Shown here: in pieces, positions 36,382 to 42,541 of the stretch
Layout of the letters: each line of letters begins with the position of its first letter
Position numbering within the stretch: position 1 is the stretch's first letter
DNA from: an uncultured Geobacter sp.
GTDB lineage: Bacteria; Desulfobacterota; Desulfuromonadia; Geobacterales; Geobacteraceae
Length of the DNA stretch: 64,000 bases
Reading direction: 5' to 3'
NCBI GenBank assembly: GCA_903915655.1
Contig: CAIWTU010000081.1
Location: 62,001-126,000, forward strand
The notes under the pieces: generated by a model
What the model saw: only the letters and a program-made list of their open reading frames with translations
Databases searched by the model: none
What the model was told of the DNA's origin: nothing
Program-made: the position numbers and the translations under genes

Positions 36382-36456
<75 letters not shown>

Positions 36457-36464
36457 AAGAATTC

Positions 36465-36939: not shown

Positions 36940-37827
36940 TCACACCCCCTTGGCAAAGGCGAGCGACTGAAATCCCCTGGCATTGGCATATTCCGGTTCC
37001 GGCATAACAATAACCTCGATGTTTCTGGCGGGAAGGCCGTTCTTCAGAAAGGCAGCACCGCCGCCGAACAGCAGGACGCGATCAAAATCTGCATGCATGC
37101 CGACATGGGCCTGCAACTCGCCCTGGATATCGCTAATGATGTGCTCAATATACGCAACGCCGGCTTCCTGAATTTCCCGGGTAACATCGTGGCGTTCAAA
37201 GCCGTATTGCAGATATCCCTTTTCAATCAGGAAAGCTATTTCTACCGGCGTGAAGGTACCTGACGGTGCAAGGTCTTTGATGCGAGGAAGGAGGAAGCTG
37301 GTCGCCATCTGGTGGACGCCACGCTTGTTGAGCGTTTTGCCATGGATGATCTGCTTCTTCTGGGGTGAGAACAGGGTGAAGATGATGGTGTTAAATCCGA
37401 TATCGATGCCGAGAACATTGCCCGTCGGTCTCTCAGGAAGTCCATCGAGATAATCCCTCAAGCCTCCCATCCCCTGCGGGAAAACTGCCACATCCTTGAT
37501 TGTGCCCCCGGTCAGTGACTTAGCCAAGGCCGGCACGGCTCCCCCTGGCTTATGCTGCTCCTGCCAGTAGGAGTACGGCAGCCCGACGGCGAGAAGAAGG
37601 TCACCCTCACAGGCAGCCTGTTTCAGACACTGTTCCACAAATACCGGATAGTAGCGAACCAACTCTTCCATCGTTTTGAGATAGGAAGAGCCGGAAGACA
37701 TCAGGGAATCCTCCCCGACCAACAAATTGTCTCCGTTGTAACTGAACGCGGAGATAATCCTTCCCTTACGCTCTCCATAGATCCATTTGGCCGAAGAAAA
37801 CCCGAGATCACACACCAGCACATTCAT
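36940..37827 (-). CDS. ParM-like actin-family plasmid segregation protein
   Basis: A 295-residue actin/Hsp70-fold ATPase. The phosphate-1 motif is CDLGFSSAKW (residues 6-15), phosphate-2 is GIDIGFNTI (about 140-148), and the adenosine motif is LFGGGAAF (about 254-261). ParM filaments push sister plasmids apart. The ATG at 37827 has GGGGGTGG upstream. An array of 12-bp repeats resembling a parC centromere lies just upstream and a ParR-like gene just downstream, which completes a type II partition module. This is unusual in an element seated in a tRNA gene and implies an extrachromosomal phase. Confidence 0.85.
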   Translation of the reverse strand: MNVLVCDLGFSSAKWIYGERKGRIISAFSYNGDNLLVGEDSLMSSGSSYLKTMEELVRYYPVFVEQCLKQAACEGDLLLAVGLPYSYWQEQHKPGGAVPALAKSLTGGTIKDVAVFPQGMGGLRDYLDGLPERPTGNVLGIDIGFNTIIFTLFSPQKKQIIHGKTLNKRGVHQMATSFLLPRIKDLAPSGTFTPVEIAFLIEKGYLQYGFERHDVTREIQEAGVAYIEHIISDIQGELQAHVGMHADFDRVLLFGGGAAFLKNGLPARNIEVIVMPEPEYANARGFQSLAFAKGV

Positions 37828-37869
37828 ATCCACCCCCAGAAAATTATGTGAGACAATCACGCCTCCATA

Positions 37870-37895
37870 CTAAATATCTATAGAGGGGGCAGGTA
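37870..37895 (-). promoter_or_regulatory. Shared element promoter/operator motif, copy 1 (parM)
   Basis: On the minus strand it reads TACCTGCCCCCTCTATAGAT then ATTTAG, 48 bases ahead of the parM ATG. The same motif recurs before alpA-trfA and before the transfer operon. TATAGAT looks like a -10 box; no -35 hexamer is seen at the usual distance, so the conserved C-rich half may bind an activator or a special sigma factor. Confidence 0.7.
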
Positions 37896-37902
37896 ACGGT
37901 GG

Positions 37903-37996
37903 CAAATATGGTGATAAATTTGGCTACAAATTTGCCACCTCTGCAACTTGGCGCAAATTTGGTAACAAACTTGGTACCAAATATAGGGCAAATAGG
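37903..37996. repeat. Candidate parC centromere: 12-bp-period direct repeats
   Basis: Eight copies of a CAAATTTGG-like unit begin at 37903, 37915, 37927, 37944, 37954, 37966, 37978 and 37989, mostly 12 bases apart (about one helical turn). Copies include CAAATATGG, TAAATTTGG, CAAATTTGG and CAAACTTGG. The parC of plasmid R1 is built from 11-bp repeats just upstream of parM, so position and periodicity both fit a ParR-binding centromere. Confidence 0.75.
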
Positions 37997-38005
37997 GGTA
38001 GGTGA

Positions 38006-38638
38006 CTATTCGACCCCATTAACAGGGCCAGGGTCCCTGCCTGTTCCATTAAGGAGTCGATCCAGCCGCTGAACATATTCGTGCATCTGATGCACCGATT
38101 TAATAGCGAAGTAGACATCATCCCAGGTCTTGCCACGGGCTTCGATGCCTGGGCGTTCAGGAACCGACGCAACAAAAGTTTTTCCTTTAGAATTCCATTC
38201 GATCATCAGAGAATCCGGTTTGGACCGGTATTTCCCCTTCTTCTCCGATCTGATCTTAGCCCCCTCGTACATGCTGAGATAGATTTCCGGAAAATCTCTT
38301 TTCAATGCTGCATGAACAGCACTCTCGTTCTCGTCGTCAGGAGCAGATTTCAGTGCTGCAACTGCCACAAACGGATCAAACCGCCAGCCGAGACACCATC
38401 GTCCAAAGGAAAAACCTTTCCGCTTGCATGCGTTTGCCAGCCTTGGGTCGATATCGTATTGACGGCGGTACTCGCTTCTTTCCATGACTGAGATTTTGCC
38501 CATATCGCGCAGCAGATCGTAGACCAAATCCACGGACGTTTTCTTCAGAGCCCTGGTGATTTCAATAACGCTGTGACCTTTCGAATACGCTTCGATGATC
38601 CGGCTGTTGAGCAGTTCTTCAATATCTTCGACTTTCAT
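38006..38638 (-). CDS. Element protein with HTH-like N-terminus and HicB-like C-terminus
   Basis: A 210-residue protein not firmly recognised. Residues ~10-45 (SKGHSVIEITRALKKTSVD) look like a helix-turn-helix. The C-terminal third (WNSKGKTFVASVPERPGIEA, then RGKTWDDVYFAIK) resembles the HicB antitoxin fold, where a beta sheet carries VxxPxxPG. No HicA-like toxin gene is adjacent. AAGGAG lies ahead of the start. It is probably a regulatory DNA-binding protein, with the parC-like array directly past its 3' end. Confidence 0.5.
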   Translation of the reverse strand: MKVEDIEELLNSRIIEAYSKGHSVIEITRALKKTSVDLVYDLLRDMGKISVMERSEYRRQYDIDPRLANACKRKGFSFGRWCLGWRFDPFVAVAALKSAPDDENESAVHAALKRDFPEIYLSMYEGAKIRSEKKGKYRSKPDSLMIEWNSKGKTFVASVPERPGIEARGKTWDDVYFAIKSVHQMHEYVQRLDRLLNGTGRDPGPVNGVE

Positions 38639-38658
38639 TTCAGGCTCCTTGTCCTAAT

Positions 38659-38698
38659 ACAAACTTTTCTATAAAGACTTTTCCTTAGAAAAGTTTGT
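38659..38698. repeat. 13-bp perfect inverted repeat upstream of the HicB-like gene
   Basis: ACAAACTTTTCTA and its exact complement flank a 14-base loop in the 68-base gap between two minus-strand genes. No T-run follows the stem on the minus strand, so an operator or a regulatory mRNA hairpin is as likely as a terminator. Confidence 0.7.
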
Positions 38699-38706
38699 TA
38701 GTTGGA

Positions 38707-39186
38707 TTATTTGACAGATTTCCTGCGCTGTTTTTCCATCGATTGCCGTTCCAAAGCTGTCAAGGAAAGGTACAGTTTTCGACATTCCCCCCTGCAGCTG
38801 CGCAGCATGTTGTAGGCAATCTGGCGGATACGTTTGATCTTGAACGCCGGATACTCGATGTGGAAATAGATGCGAAGGTTGTTGGCAACGTCCTGCACCG
38901 ATACCCGTACTCTGGGTCTCCCCTCTTTCGGGAGATATGAACTCAGAACGTAGCGCTCAATCTTGCCGAAGTTCGGGAATGCGAGCATCAGCGCTCGCTT
39001 GTCTGATTTGAAATACATGTTCATCCGGGCGACGTACCATTCATCTGTCCAAAGGCGGGAAAGCAGTTGCATTGCGTGTTGATCTTTCTCGTCCAGAGGA
39101 TCAGTCAATAATCCCTCGCCAACCATTCTTTTCAGTGCTTTCAGCGGAATTGGTCTAAATTTTGTTGCTGCTTGCTCCAAATCCAT
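38707..39186 (-). CDS. Hypothetical element protein
   Basis: A 159-residue basic protein with no recognised family. It is rich in Arg/Lys, especially in the last 45 residues (RIRQIAYNMLRSCRGECRK), which suggests nucleic acid binding. It starts 30 bases after the sigma-like gene and has a GGAGG-type ribosome site, so the two are probably cotranscribed. Confidence 0.55.
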   Translation of the reverse strand: MDLEQAATKFRPIPLKALKRMVGEGLLTDPLDEKDQHAMQLLSRLWTDEWYVARMNMYFKSDKRALMLAFPNFGKIERYVLSSYLPKEGRPRVRVSVQDVANNLRIYFHIEYPAFKIKRIRQIAYNMLRSCRGECRKLYLSLTALERQSMEKQRRKSVK

Positions 39187-39216
39187 CGTTTACCTCCCTG
39201 ATTTTATGGCCTGCAT

Positions 39217-39777
39217 TCATAAAGCGAAACACTTGGGGTCAATGATGCCCTTCTTAACGAGCTGCTCTATCCGTCGAAATGCTCTCTTGTGAATGTCACG
39301 AATATTTGACGGGACACACCCAAGAAGATCTGCAATCTCGTAATTTGACATACTTCCTTCCATGCCGATTCCGAGGGCATAGTAAAGGACCTGTTGCTCC
39401 TTGTCCGTAAGGTGATGGCGCACAGACTGAAAGATCATCTCGATATCAGGATCTTTCTGTCTTCTATCGGCTCTATTTTCGGTAACGAACGTCAGGTCTT
39501 CTGAGCAGACATGCGAGGGAATCGAATTTGATCCATGTGTCAGAATATTCGGCGACGGAGTTATGACACTGATATGATTTCGGAATACCTTCCAGAACAC
39601 TGCCTCGAAGGCAAGGTTCTTCTCCCTGCTGCGGATTGCCGCGATAATTGCGGCTTCAAAGGCTTCCTGCATGTAGTCACATTCTTCATACGGTGAAAAA
39701 TTGCGGTACTTGGCGATATAACCCTTGATTGCAGACTCATGCTCACTTACCCATGCCATTGCTTGCTGAAAGTCCAT
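39217..39777 (-). CDS. Small sigma-70-like factor of the mobile element
   Basis: A 186-residue protein with the layout of a short sigma factor. A region-2-like stretch at about residues 20-72 (YRNFSPYEECDYMQEAFEA, then FWKVFRNHIS) is followed by a linker. A region-4 helix-turn-helix at about 120-178 reads LTDKEQQVLYYALGIG, then MSNYEIADLLGCVPSNIRDI. No anti-sigma gene is obvious. GGAGGG precedes the ATG, and a terminator hairpin lies right upstream. An element-encoded sigma factor could drive the three shared-motif promoters, which is a hypothesis. Confidence 0.72.
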   Translation of the reverse strand: MDFQQAMAWVSEHESAIKGYIAKYRNFSPYEECDYMQEAFEAAIIAAIRSREKNLAFEAVFWKVFRNHISVITPSPNILTHGSNSIPSHVCSEDLTFVTENRADRRQKDPDIEMIFQSVRHHLTDKEQQVLYYALGIGMEGSMSNYEIADLLGCVPSNIRDIHKRAFRRIEQLVKKGIIDPKCFAL

Positions 39778-39794
39778 CGGGGAACCCTCCAGAT

Positions 39795-39834
39795 AAAAAA
39801 AAGCCGGCTTCGGGTAATCCCGATAACCGGCCTT
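39795..39834 (-). terminator. Intrinsic terminator ahead of the sigma-like gene
   Basis: On the minus strand: GCCGG, an inner CGGG-ATTA-CCCG hairpin, CCGGC, then eight T. It ends transcripts coming from alpA-trfA and the small downstream gene, and lies about 20 bases ahead of the sigma-like start codon, so that gene needs read-through or its own promoter. Confidence 0.85.
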
Positions 39835-39900
39835 GCTTTCGCCATCTTTCTTAGCTAGTTGCCGTGCCGTAACGTATTCAGTTGTAAACTTGCAGTTAAG

Positions 39901-40212
39901 TTAGAAACTGATCCCTAAATTTGTCGCAATACCAACCAACTCGGAAACAGATGACTTCTGCCTGATATGATTTTCCACTTTGCGGCGGATCTTGACAGTA
40001 TCCCAACCTGTCTGGATGTACTCACCAGCAACATGAACAGATCCATCTTCAGCGATACTTATGTGGTGATCTCTTATTGCCTGCTCAATGACAGAAATAT
40101 CTGGCCTTCCTTTGTCCAAACGATAACCATTCCTGTCAGAGACCAGCGACATTCCCTTTTTTCGAAGGTAAGTAACCACAACGTCCATCAGCTTATCATT
40201 CGGGCATTTCAT
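39901..40212 (-). CDS. Hypothetical protein downstream of the replication region
   Basis: A 103-residue protein of unknown family. Its mix of charged segments (KIRRKVENHIRQKSSVSELVG) is compatible with a small DNA-binding or regulatory protein. The start at 40212 has GGAG upstream. It lies just past the iterons on the trfA strand and ahead of a terminator. Confidence 0.5.
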   Translation of the reverse strand: MKCPNDKLMDVVVTYLRKKGMSLVSDRNGYRLDKGRPDISVIEQAIRDHHISIAEDGSVHVAGEYIQTGWDTVKIRRKVENHIRQKSSVSELVGIATNLGISF

Positions 40213-40239
40213 CAAACTTAATCTCCAATCACTCGCTTT

Positions 40240-40253
40240 CGCGCACGTGCGCG
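40240..40253. repeat. 14-bp perfect palindrome beside the iterons
   Basis: CGCGCACGTGCGCG is fully self-complementary and very GC-rich in an otherwise AT-rich gap. It lies 27 bases upstream of the hypothetical gene start and about 90 bases from the iterons. It may be a repressor operator or part of the origin. About 40 bases further on, the minus strand carries TTATCAACA (40291-40299), one mismatch from a DnaA box. Confidence 0.6.
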
Positions 40254-40341
40254 TTTTGGTTAGAAATTGGTTAAAAGAAGGTTAGCGGGGTGTTGATAAC
40301 CTTGTAACCAAGCGATTGTTTTCAGAAATCAGAACCATGCC

Positions 40342-40468
40342 GGTCGGTCATAGGTCATGGGTCGGGTCGGTCAAAAGTCAATATTCAGGTCGGTCAAAAG
40401 TCAGTAGCAGTCGGTCATAGGTCAATAGTGAGTCGGTCATAAGTCAATATCCGGTCGGTCATAGGTCA
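40342..40468. repeat. Six 16-bp iterons: candidate replication origin (oriV)
   Basis: Direct repeats of RGTCGGTCAWARGTCA start at 40342, 40365, 40388, 40409, 40431 and 40453. The spacing is 21-23 bases, two helical turns. Only the first base and two internal positions vary. The last copy overlaps the trfA stop codon. Iterons beside an initiator gene are the hallmark of theta-replicating plasmid origins. The sequence differs from the 17-bp iterons of RK2. Confidence 0.88.
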
Positions 40469-41305
40469 ATACTTTCGGATAACGACGACTAGCTCACCCT
40501 TAAATTCCCACGACTCCAGAAAACCCGCCTCTTTCAGAAGACTGAGGGCCTTTTTCAACTCCGCCTTGAAATGCTTCGCACTCATTCCAGAACCGCACAG
40601 CTTAGATAACGTCTCGATCTTGACCGGATACGGCTTGCGGTGACTGGCCCAATAACCGAACAACTTGGAAGCAATACCGTCAGGCAATGAACGTCTTGTT
40701 TCCCAGGTCACCCGGGTCAGAAAATCTTCGTCGAACAGCAACTGCATTTCCTTGCAGATCCAGACCTCCCATCGGGAAAGATTTTCATCCCGGTCGTTTC
40801 TGGACATGAATTTTTGAATCAAGGAGATGCTGATGAAACTGTCCAGTCGCTTCGACTGAATTCTGAGTGCTGTGGCCTGCATGCGACTGAGACAGGTACG
40901 CAGCCTTTCGTAATTCTGTCCCTTGATAGGCCACCCGAGTGCTTTGATGAATGAGTAGGGAGTAAACGTGACACATTCACCCAACTGGATTTTTTTGATC
41001 AGATGCATAAGGTGCATCCAGACAAGCTCATCATCCTGTCGCAGTTCTTCGCCGCGATATATGACCTGCCCATCTCCGATCACTGCTATTTCAGCTTCCT
41101 TCATGAACACGCGGGGAAGGTTCCTGTTGCGGCAATTAAAGAGAGCTGAACGCAGGATCTCATTCGGCATTGCCCGTTGTCCTTCAGGCCAATCGGGCAG
41201 ATATTTCGGTCTAGCGGCAAAGCTTGCCAGCAGTTCCTGGAATGAATCCTGTTCATGTAATTCCTTTGAATCTGTGAACAGAAGCGGTTGAACATTGTCA
41301 TGCAA
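40466..41305 (-). CDS. trfA: TrfA-family replication initiator protein
   Basis: A 279-residue initiator of the TrfA family (broad-host-range IncP plasmids), which binds iterons, opens the origin and loads the helicase. Matches to RK2 TrfA are visible by eye: WPEGQRAMPNEILRSALF with CRN (residues 39-60), YRGEELRQDDELVW (about 83-96), then SRMQATAL and SHRKPYPVKIETLSKLCGS. Only a short N-terminal region replaces the long TrfA-44 extension. It starts with TTG, supported by AGGAGG six to seven bases upstream. It follows alpA by about 45 bases and probably shares its promoter. Confidence 0.9.
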   Translation of the reverse strand: MHDNVQPLLFTDSKELHEQDSFQELLASFAARPKYLPDWPEGQRAMPNEILRSALFNCRNRNLPRVFMKEAEIAVIGDGQVIYRGEELRQDDELVWMHLMHLIKKIQLGECVTFTPYSFIKALGWPIKGQNYERLRTCLSRMQATALRIQSKRLDSFISISLIQKFMSRNDRDENLSRWEVWICKEMQLLFDEDFLTRVTWETRRSLPDGIASKLFGYWASHRKPYPVKIETLSKLCGSGMSAKHFKAELKKALSLLKEAGFLESWEFKGELVVVIRKY

Positions 41306-41349
41306 CAGTGGCCTCCTGACCGGTGTTGAAGAGTTGTCTCCTTAAAAGC

Positions 41350-41523
41350 TCAGACACTTTTCCGTGCTTCAAGCCAGGATTCAACGTCTTCGGATCTCCA
41401 GCGCTTGCATCCCATCAAGATGACCGGCTTGGGAAAATTCTGATGCCTCAGCACCCTCCAGAGTGTTGCTCTCGATACATTCATGATCTCCATCAAGTCA
41501 CGCTGCCTCAAAAGTGCTTCCAT
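41350..41523 (-). CDS. AlpA/excisionase-like small DNA-binding protein
   Basis: A 57-residue protein with a MerR/AlpA-type helix-turn-helix. It starts MEALLRQRDLMEIMNVSRAT. The wing is FPKPVILMGCKRWRSEDVE, followed by SWLEARKSV. AlpA-type proteins act as excisionases or as activators of integrase genes in mobile elements. It has a strong GGAGG ribosome site eight bases ahead of the ATG and the shared promoter motif 40 bases ahead. It is the first gene of the alpA-trfA operon. Confidence 0.85.
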   Translation of the reverse strand: MEALLRQRDLMEIMNVSRATLWRVLRHQNFPKPVILMGCKRWRSEDVESWLEARKSV

Positions 41524-41556
41524 TGCTTTTCCTCCGTTCTTGGTGTTTCTCCCTGT

Positions 41557-41582
41557 CTAAATATCTATAAGGGGGGCAGGTG
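41557..41582 (-). promoter_or_regulatory. Shared element promoter/operator motif, copy 2 (alpA-trfA)
   Basis: On the minus strand it reads CACCTGCCCCCCTTATAGAT then ATTTAG, 40 bases ahead of the alpA ATG. It matches copy 1 at 23 of 26 positions. Confidence 0.7.
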
Positions 41583-41630
41583 CAATTCGTGTTTTGACCG
41601 GAAAAAACCATCTAACTGCCCAACATTTAA

Positions 41631-41804
41631 CTAGAAAAAAATTTTGATCTGAGAATATCCAGATGCGTGAAGGCTATTCATGCCGAGTGGAACCGGCAGA
41701 CCGATGCTGGTCATCTTCGCCAAGTTGGCTCCTTTGCCCCCCAGTAGTTTTTTCATCTCAGCCACGCCTTCAACCTTACCGTTGCTAAAAAAATATATGT
41801 CCAT
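41631..41804 (-). pseudogene. N-terminal fragment of pyruvate phosphate dikinase
   Basis: A 57-codon reading frame whose first 41 residues match the very start of pyruvate phosphate dikinase: [13 protein letters not shown], then [17 protein letters not shown] and GLPVPLG. The full enzyme has about 880-900 residues. After residue ~41 similarity ends, and 16 unrelated residues lead to a stop. It is therefore a truncated leftover of a chromosomal gene carried inside the element, between alpA and the transfer operon. There is only a weak GGGA ahead of the ATG, so expression is doubtful. Confidence 0.8.
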
Positions 41805-41880
41805 ACTGTGCGTTTCCCATTGTCGCCAGATGACTCTCAGCGCACCTCAACTTGATTCTCGGCTCCCGAGGATCATCGCC

Positions 41881-41905
41881 AACCTGCCCCCCCTATAGAT
41901 TATTT
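41881..41905 (+). promoter_or_regulatory. Shared element promoter/operator motif, copy 3 (transfer operon)
   Basis: AACCTGCCCCCCCTATAGAT then TATTT, 32 bases ahead of the first gene of the transfer operon and on its coding strand. The orientation relative to the gene is the same as in the other two copies. No -35-like hexamer is found 17 bases ahead of TATAGAT. Confidence 0.7.
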
Positions 41906-41932
41906 CTATGAACAACTCGATCAGGAGGTCCT

Positions 41933-42541
41933 ATGCCGGTCAAATCATTGAGCATCGCAACGCTTGTCCTGCTCGTTCCGTTGGCAAGCCATGCCACGGA
42001 CATTCGCCAGCGACCATTCAGCTATTCATTCGAAGCTGTGGTTGCAAAGGAAAGTGACCAATTCGTGGTCTGCTCAGATTGTCCTGACAATCGGCTCTCC
42101 AGGCTGCCCATGACTCCAAAATTGGCTTTGCGATTAACGGCACCTCTCAACCCGGACGTTCCTAATACGCCTGTAACTCAACAACAAGTGCAGAGCACAA
42201 AAGCTCAAGCCAACGTTAAACAGGTTCGACTCGTCCCCATTCAGTTCGATTTCGACAGCGCAAAGTTGTCCATCCCAGAACGCGAGAAGCTCAATGGGCT
42301 ACTGGCTAATTTGCCGAGAAACAGCACGCTCGATGTGACGGGGTTTACCTGCACGATTGGCAGAAGTAACTACAACGAGGAACTGTCGATCAGGAGGGCG
42401 AACCATGTAGCCGAAATTATTAAAATTAATGGGCTAAATGTGGGGACTGTAGAGGGAAAAGGCAAGTGCTGCCCTGTTTCGACTGATAAGCGCCTGAACC
42501 GGCGTGTGGAAATTCTGGAACATCAAAAGGAGGAGTTGTGA
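41933..42541 (+). CDS. OmpA-like peptidoglycan-binding exported protein, first gene of the transfer operon
   Basis: A 202-residue protein with a signal peptide (cleavage near SHATD). After a poorly conserved region, the C-terminal OmpA-like domain spans about residues 100-200: VPIQFDFDSAKLSIPEREKL, then ELSIRRANHVAEIIKINGL, with the Asp/Arg pair that binds meso-diaminopimelate. It has an unusual CTIG and CCP cysteine pair. AGGAGG precedes the ATG. It probably anchors the secretion apparatus to peptidoglycan. The stop overlaps the dsbC-like start. Confidence 0.8.
   Translation: MPVKSLSIATLVLLVPLASHATDIRQRPFSYSFEAVVAKESDQFVVCSDCPDNRLSRLPMTPKLALRLTAPLNPDVPNTPVTQQQVQSTKAQANVKQVRLVPIQFDFDSAKLSIPEREKLNGLLANLPRNSTLDVTGFTCTIGRSNYNEELSIRRANHVAEIIKINGLNVGTVEGKGKCCPVSTDKRLNRRVEILEHQKEEL

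Follow-up and report, generated by a model that had tools for sequence, protein, structure and literature searches.

A sigma-70-family protein encoded by Geobacter/Desulfuromonas-group conjugative elements is the likeliest reader of a promoter-like site shared by their partition, replication and transfer operons

To our knowledge, the master regulators that control conjugation in Gram-negative hosts are of the activator type, for example AcaCD and SetCD; setC and setD are FlhDC-related. Mobile elements can also reprogramme the host polymerase by a sigma factor of their own, as is the case for gp55 of phage T4 and gp28 of phage SPO1. Orf7 of Tn916 is a sigma-like protein in an integrative and conjugative element (ICE) of Gram-positive bacteria, for which we know of no shared promoter set or satellites. 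The excerpts available of PMC4605294 and PMC5704250 describe AcaCD of IncA/C plasmids as an element-encoded master activator of the transfer operons, and an AcaCD target site before xis in SGI1, which thereby senses its helper. MpsA of SGI1 is described as a mobilisation protein of the tyrosine recombinase type (PMC6414798, in excerpt), and SetCD of the SXT/R391 ICEs as an ICE-encoded activator of transfer genes (PMC4344509, in excerpt). The excerpts of PMC9632896 contain no description of Tn916 Orf7, and neither these nor those of PMC6540685 contain anything on ICE-encoded sigma factors. The locus analysed here lies in a 64,000-nt stretch of an uncultured Geobacter sp. (the window), which holds one end of an integrated conjugative element with genes for partition, replication and transfer and for a small sigma-70-family protein.

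Like AcaCD and SGI1, this element and its relatives appear to combine an element-encoded transfer switch with putatively mobilisable satellites that carry the regulator's site before alpA, and some of these satellites encode a tyrosine-recombinase-like protein. AcaCD is an activator of the FlhDC family and SetCD is a two-gene activator, whereas the candidate regulator here is a sigma factor; the promoter itself would be what is recognised, its variants differ by clade, and one satellite has four of them in tandem. In contrast to the sigma factors of the lytic phages T4 and SPO1, the present protein is of the size of an extracytoplasmic function (ECF) sigma factor and is found in conjugative elements and plasmids; with Orf7 of Tn916 it shares being a sigma-like protein in an ICE. 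It resembles the ECF sigma factors (TIGR02937) in size, in its sigma-2-like and sigma-4 parts and in its best fold match, SigL, but differs from them by a region-3.0-like GSNSIPSHxC. Classical ECF promoters have a -35 of the GGAAC type, whereas no conserved -35 is found across the four promoter classes of sigma clade A. No paper on this sigma factor, its promoters or these satellites was recognised in the open-licence PMC literature, which does not prove their absence.

The motif ACCTGCCCCCYYTATAGAT occurs three times without mismatch in the window, at 37876-37894 (-), 41563-41581 (-) and 41882-41900 (+). The chance expectation from shuffled sequence is 0.03 matches, even allowing three mismatches. 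The first copy belongs to a putative promoter before parM (37870..37895, -), with the C-rich box (C-box) ACCTGCCCCC, the clade-specific TATA, a -10 GATATT at 37878-37873 and a predicted +1 at 37866. The second lies before alpA-trfA (41557..41582, -; -10 GATATT at 41565-41560, predicted +1 at 41553) and the third before the first transfer operon (41881..41910, +; -10 GATTAT at 41898-41903, predicted +1 at 41910). The original prediction had described three near-identical copies in front of these genes, and their coordinates, the agreement of two of them at 23 of 26 bases and their distances to the start codons, counted from the T of GAT, all agree with the sequence.

In the draft genome of the same organism (3.36 Mb, 171 contigs), the motif is found in four exact copies, namely the three of the window and one on a second contig (C95:8108-8126), rather than in many equal matches over the chromosome. 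With up to three mismatches, six matches were found against one for the reversed pattern. A shorter pattern with up to two mismatches gave eight matches against eight for its control, and inexact matches in this genome are therefore at control level. The fourth exact site precedes genes for a lytic transglycosylase (LT) and a TraD-type coupling protein, behind which lie genes annotated TraF and TraH in the plasmid relative pPRO1. Contig C95 contains the other end of the window element, because the 47-bp end copy in tRNA-Gly (attL, 36412..36458) recurs there identically as attR (C95:15174-15220), next to the gene of a 477-aa tyrosine integrase. Since the sites precede parM, alpA-trfA, the first gene of the transfer operon (tra1) and the transglycosylase-TraD genes, the main known operons of the element are each headed by the motif. 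The idea of one promoter for partition, replication/excision and transfer is thus supported by comparison, with the addition that a second transfer operon belongs to the set.

The site is specific for one family of elements. Exact matching across the genome collection returned 45 stretches, of which 21 were assigned to the element family from their neighbouring genes or flanking sequence. The remaining 24 come from unrelated records; among them, L036 alone has the family's AC before the motif. In a set of 141 genomes from the order, 44 exact sites were found in 12 genomes. All nine genomes with a sigma gene of the window's clade (≥65% identity) have at least three exact sites each, and three of the other 132 genomes (G065, G067, G112; without such a sigma) have one each. 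These single sites look like remnants or fragments. Two plasmid relatives, pPRO1 (L163) and pSD (L164), have sigma genes annotated as hypothetical protein.

In an alignment of 38 sites from the four non-homologous promoter classes of clade A, the bases from ACC to GATnAT form one contiguous conserved block, and a -35 is absent; bases within the search pattern are conserved by construction, and sites found via the sigma gene are free of that bias. A wider set comprised 56 operon heads from elements of clades A, B, C, D, E and H, of which 53 fit a relaxed pattern, three were placed by eye and one further site was re-framed by hand. Four elements represent clade A in this set, and the D trfA heads and clades F, I, J and K lie outside the count. 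The -10 is GATTAT, GATATT or near (GAT[TA][AT]T). Twelve bases past its first base a purine is present in 56 of 56 sites (31 non-identical sequences), preceded by a pyrimidine (T/C) in 49; the -10 frame was chosen, and the purine noticed, by eye before counting. With a -10 and a purine at normal initiation distance, the site looks like a promoter. Upstream of the -10 lies the C-box, CCT[GT]CCCCC in most clades, whose start is 15 nt from the -10 in clades A-D, 16-17 nt in H and about 14 nt in E. The -10 had originally been placed at TATAGAT; a -10 is indeed present in the motif, but GATATT/GATTAT, 4 nt further on, fits better. The absence of a -35 hexamer was correctly seen, none being conserved across operons. 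A host sigma-70 -35 in front of the motif was rejected on the same grounds.

The four bases before GAT differ by clade (56 sites): TATA in A, TCGT in B, CATA or TATA in C, GCAA, ACAA, AGAA or TGAA in D, GCTA or CATA in E, and TACA or AGCA in H. Promoters of unrelated operons in one element share the bases of their clade. The within-element similarity of 5-mers is 0.818 against 0.445 when sites are shuffled among elements within each operon class (0/20000 permutations as similar), and 0.867 against 0.476 (0/20000) for nine representative elements only. Scans with the B and D patterns gave 42 sites, 38 of them at parM, alpA, tra1 or LT genes; two of the rest are in a satellite array, one is at a contig edge and one, with two mismatches, has no such gene. 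The reversed-pattern controls gave none for B and one for D. Some genomes have B-type sites but no B sigma; except in G012, most of these sites turned out to be ICE fragments. One genome, G096, contains three A elements and one H element, with A sites and H sites respectively, and the reader is probably element-encoded because each kind of element there keeps its own variant. Another, G068, has both A and H sigmas, and its H contig stops before any promoter is seen. A distinct form of the site precedes tra1 in clade F, at four places in three genomes. The more distant clades have a different stretch at their transfer operons. In clade I (L145), 49 nt, 98% alike, are common to both transfer operons. 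In clade J, the two transfer operons of plasmid pPRO1 have an identical stretch of about 43 nt in common, with a looser likeness in pSD; no J-type stretch was seen before parM, rep or sigma in these two plasmids.

The protein encoded at 39217..39777 (-; 186 aa), with a sigma-2-like N-terminal part, the region-3.0-like GSNSIPSHxC and sigma-4, is a sigma-70-family member by its sequence profile matches. TIGR02937 matches 23 of 24 family members (E ≤ 0.001), aligning with residues 10-172 of the window protein, whose score of 42.9 is exactly the cut-off. Pfam Sigma70_r4 is found in 20 of the 24 members at E 0.01 or better, although the window protein falls slightly short of the curated cut-off, and the PDB profile match is to region 4 of RpoD/SigA. 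For region 2 there was no Pfam match, and alignments to SigA/RpoD region 2 were not significant; the AlphaFold model has helices at residues 3-70 with moderate confidence and is moderate overall (pLDDT 70, pTM 0.42). In a fold search, the matches shown are nearly all sigma factors, the best being SigL at E 4.7e-3 and none reaching 0.001. The conserved GSNSIPSHxC falls at the position of RpoD region 3.0 in an alignment that is itself not significant. Region 3.0 of sigma factors has a role in promoter contact, and regions 2.4/3.0 read the bases abutting the -10. No match to the sigma was found in the phage records searched and none was confirmed in viral contigs, and a phage origin was dropped.

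By tblastn in fetched stretches of up to about 17 kb, only two genes of the regulatory region were detected across clades A-J, the sigma gene and o38006. Among clades that keep sites, o38707 is undetected in B, I and J, alpA in D, E, H, I and J, o39901 in I and J, trfA in I and J, and parM in I. AlpA, o39901, o38707, TrfA and ParM were rejected as general readers, since each is undetected in some clade that keeps sites. Two readers had been named in the original prediction: the sigma-like protein fits, and the AlpA-like one does not, being undetected in D, E, H, I and J, which have clade-specific or shared transfer sites. The notion of an element-encoded factor as reader also fits the clade variants, their concerted change and the arrangement in G096. 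On this comparative evidence, the sigma protein is the likeliest reader, ahead of the co-conserved o38006.

The sigma gene is preceded by a conserved RNA leader (39779..39869, -), a stem-loop whose outer GGC/GCC pairing excludes an intrinsic terminator. In 32 of 38 sigma homologues (clades A-F and H), a strong hairpin with a T-run is found 15-25 nt before the start codon; the six exceptions are I, J, two K homologues and two second sigmas that stand in tandem in F elements. Upstream of the terminator lies GGCACGG-stem-GGCAAAGCC. Leader stem and terminator are mutually exclusive because the outer pairing draws on the 5' arm of the terminator. As the outer helix is invariant, it is no proof of structure. 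When the inner stem is included, pairing is seen in 84% of cells. The covariation score is then 0.191, whereas slid versions give at most 0.093 and shuffled ones 0.090 (0/500); 35 of 500 shuffles attained the number of pairs changed on both sides. A model built from 20 leaders found 39 copies in 30 of the 141 genomes, 33 directly before a sigma gene, four before tra1 of F elements, one before an o39901 homologue and one weak; the window copy is among the more divergent. No leader match reached the Rfam gathering score in a scan of the window and, at permissive E-values, of three leader stretches. A c-di-GMP or other known riboswitch was rejected (best Rfam E-value 0.037, far below gathering). 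The leader is probably an attenuator that holds back the sigma. In the F elements L138 and L139, a second, divergent sigma gene directly follows the first and has no RNA leader.

Promoters of the same type were also found in satellite elements. A search with a satellite AlpA as query gave matches in 69 of the 141 genomes. Thirty loci were returned, and in 11 of them the promoter lies about 90 bp before alpA. Markov resampling predicts 0.62 such loci, for a pattern that was settled once the first sites had been inspected; several of the 11 loci are close relatives of each other. These sites keep much of the surrounding sequence and differ in exactly the clade-specific bases: TATA in two, TACA in four (with the H spacing of 16) and AGAA/GGAA in five. 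Their C-box spacing is 15 or 16 nt, matching the variant. In seven of seven loci read further, an integrase precedes the promoter (once as broken frames), and alpA is followed by a primase (four), a DnaB-type helicase (one) or an HTH gene like that of L160 (two; HTH, helix-turn-helix). An excisionase-like gene under a helper-type site together with an integrase is thus present in these satellites by sequence, as in SGI1. Four of the seven encode a tyrosine-recombinase-like protein of about 334 aa (Phage_integrase 1.7e-4, below the cut-off), of a kind similar to MpsA. One satellite is in the window's own genome (G000:C93, L257/L269; L269 11594-13564). In L160, an integrase gene is followed by four promoters in about 200 bp (7593-7380, -), which end TCATA-GATTGT, CTCGT-GATTAT, TGCAA-GATATT and TGCAG-AATTTA, and then by the gene of an HTH_36 protein; no sigma was detected in this genome at E 1e-8. 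By analogy with SGI1, satellites that copy the promoter would sense the active sigma of a helper.

Taken together, we consider it probable (about 0.77) that the element's own sigma factor redirects the host polymerase to a shared promoter under the control of an attenuated leader, with satellites responding. The small sigma-70-family factor would direct host RNA polymerase to a bipartite promoter made up of a GAT[TA][AT]T -10, the clade bases and the C-rich box, with no -35. In this way partition, replication/AlpA and both transfer operons, the main one and that of the transglycosylase and TraD, would be activated together. In the presumed order of events, sigma synthesis would be restrained by the terminator/anti-terminator leader and relief of attenuation would be the trigger, and satellites with the same promoter before alpA or replication genes would respond to the helper's sigma.

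Several observations weigh against this explanation. The promoters of clades I and J are without the C-box of A-H, no promoter was identified in clade K, and no site was found upstream of trfA with the relaxed pattern in eight of eight D loci. The site before the 362-aa recombinase gene (int362) in D elements reads TA and not the D code AA. When two mismatches are allowed, the A pattern has 70 matches in the 141 genomes and its reverse about 35; weight can therefore be given only to sites that are exact or supported by their clade. The C-box is about 8 nt too near for reading by sigma-4 at the usual -35. The DNA variant is tracked by sigma residues 67-68, yet 22 further adjacent pairs do the same (23 of 185 in total), and a residue-base code was rejected as proof of binding. 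Putative autoregulation of the sigma gene from the alpA promoter would have to pass the iterons and the leader terminator, and o38006 is nearly as widespread as the sigma gene. Of the 11 satellite genomes, five have a detected sigma and two of these (G104, G023) have the matching type; matching within genomes was discarded as evidence, as two of five (not G000, G007, G011) are too few to count.

Among the alternatives, sigma and o38006 (or another element protein) may act jointly, sigma reading the -10 and upstream bases and the partner the C-box. The bipartite site with its near-fixed spacing and the joint detection of both genes in clades A-J would suit such an arrangement, but satellite sites, by eye, do not have an extra conserved half-site common to the ICE promoters, and we regard it as unlikely. 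Rather improbable is host sigma-70 acting at the -10 with an element activator, likeliest o38006, at the C-box in place of the -35. A C-box ending near -17 and no -35 suit an activator-dependent promoter, and o38006 has an HTH-like N-terminal part, was undetected only in clade K and shows a divergence between clades no smaller than that of sigma. However, the clade-dependent bases lie directly beside the -10, where regions 2.4/3.0 of a sigma read; an activator fold of o38006 is not supported by PDB or Pfam, and in most clades the gene adjoins parM, which suits a par role. That the motif is a repressor operator over ordinary promoters agrees with its overlap with the -10 but is very doubtful, since there is no -35 in front of it and AlpA, the obvious repressor candidate, is undetected in several site-keeping clades. 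Chance or plain inheritance of similar sequence, for which nothing but the shared origin of the elements speaks, is practically negligible given 0.03 expected matches at up to three mismatches and non-homologous promoters that change in concert.

The remaining genes of the region complete the picture of the element. The AlpA-like HTH protein (41350..41523, -) is of the excisionase/regulator type and is followed by the TrfA-type replication initiator (40466..41305, -; E 8e-53). Six 22-nt iterons adjoin trfA (40339..40471) and form a probable oriV, that is, a probable plasmid-type origin inside an integrated element. Next are o39901 (39901..40215, -), a small, poorly conserved protein without assigned function (30-50% in most elements), and, beyond the sigma gene, o38707 (38707..39186, -), also without assigned function, for which the stretches fetched from B, I and J gave no match. 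The gene o38006 (38006..38638, -), with its N-terminal HTH-like part, may encode a rival regulator or a par adaptor. Between o38006 and the parM promoter, repeats of the form AAATTTGG... (37901-37997) are a probable par centromere. The ParM-like actin (36940..37860, -; likely start ATG 37827) has weak family matches below curated cut-offs. In the opposite direction, an OmpA-like gene (41933..42541, +) is the first of the F-type transfer operon, followed by DsbC-like, TraE, TraK, TraB, TraV, TraC, TraN, TraU and TrbC genes. A second recombinase gene has an inexact site (C81:127039, two mismatches) in front of it, which is found again in related elements. This gene (G000:C81:127903-128991, L062 2904-3992; 362 aa) has its own CCTTCCCCCCCAATAGATATA-type site and is 98-99% identical in three D elements whose sigma is only about 55% identical.

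We lean towards a wider picture in which conjugative elements of the Geobacter/Desulfuromonas group have a sigma factor of their own as master switch, set free by a new RNA attenuator. Promoter codes would have diverged with the sigma clades, and satellites would track these codes, some through a single exchanged variant and one through four variants in tandem, by which it could answer several kinds of helper. If this is true, a transfer-specific sigma factor with several natural promoter codes would be a clean system for the evolution of sigma-promoter specificity. A few DNA bases would then predict which satellite answers which helper, and eavesdropping of satellites on their helpers would be directly testable.

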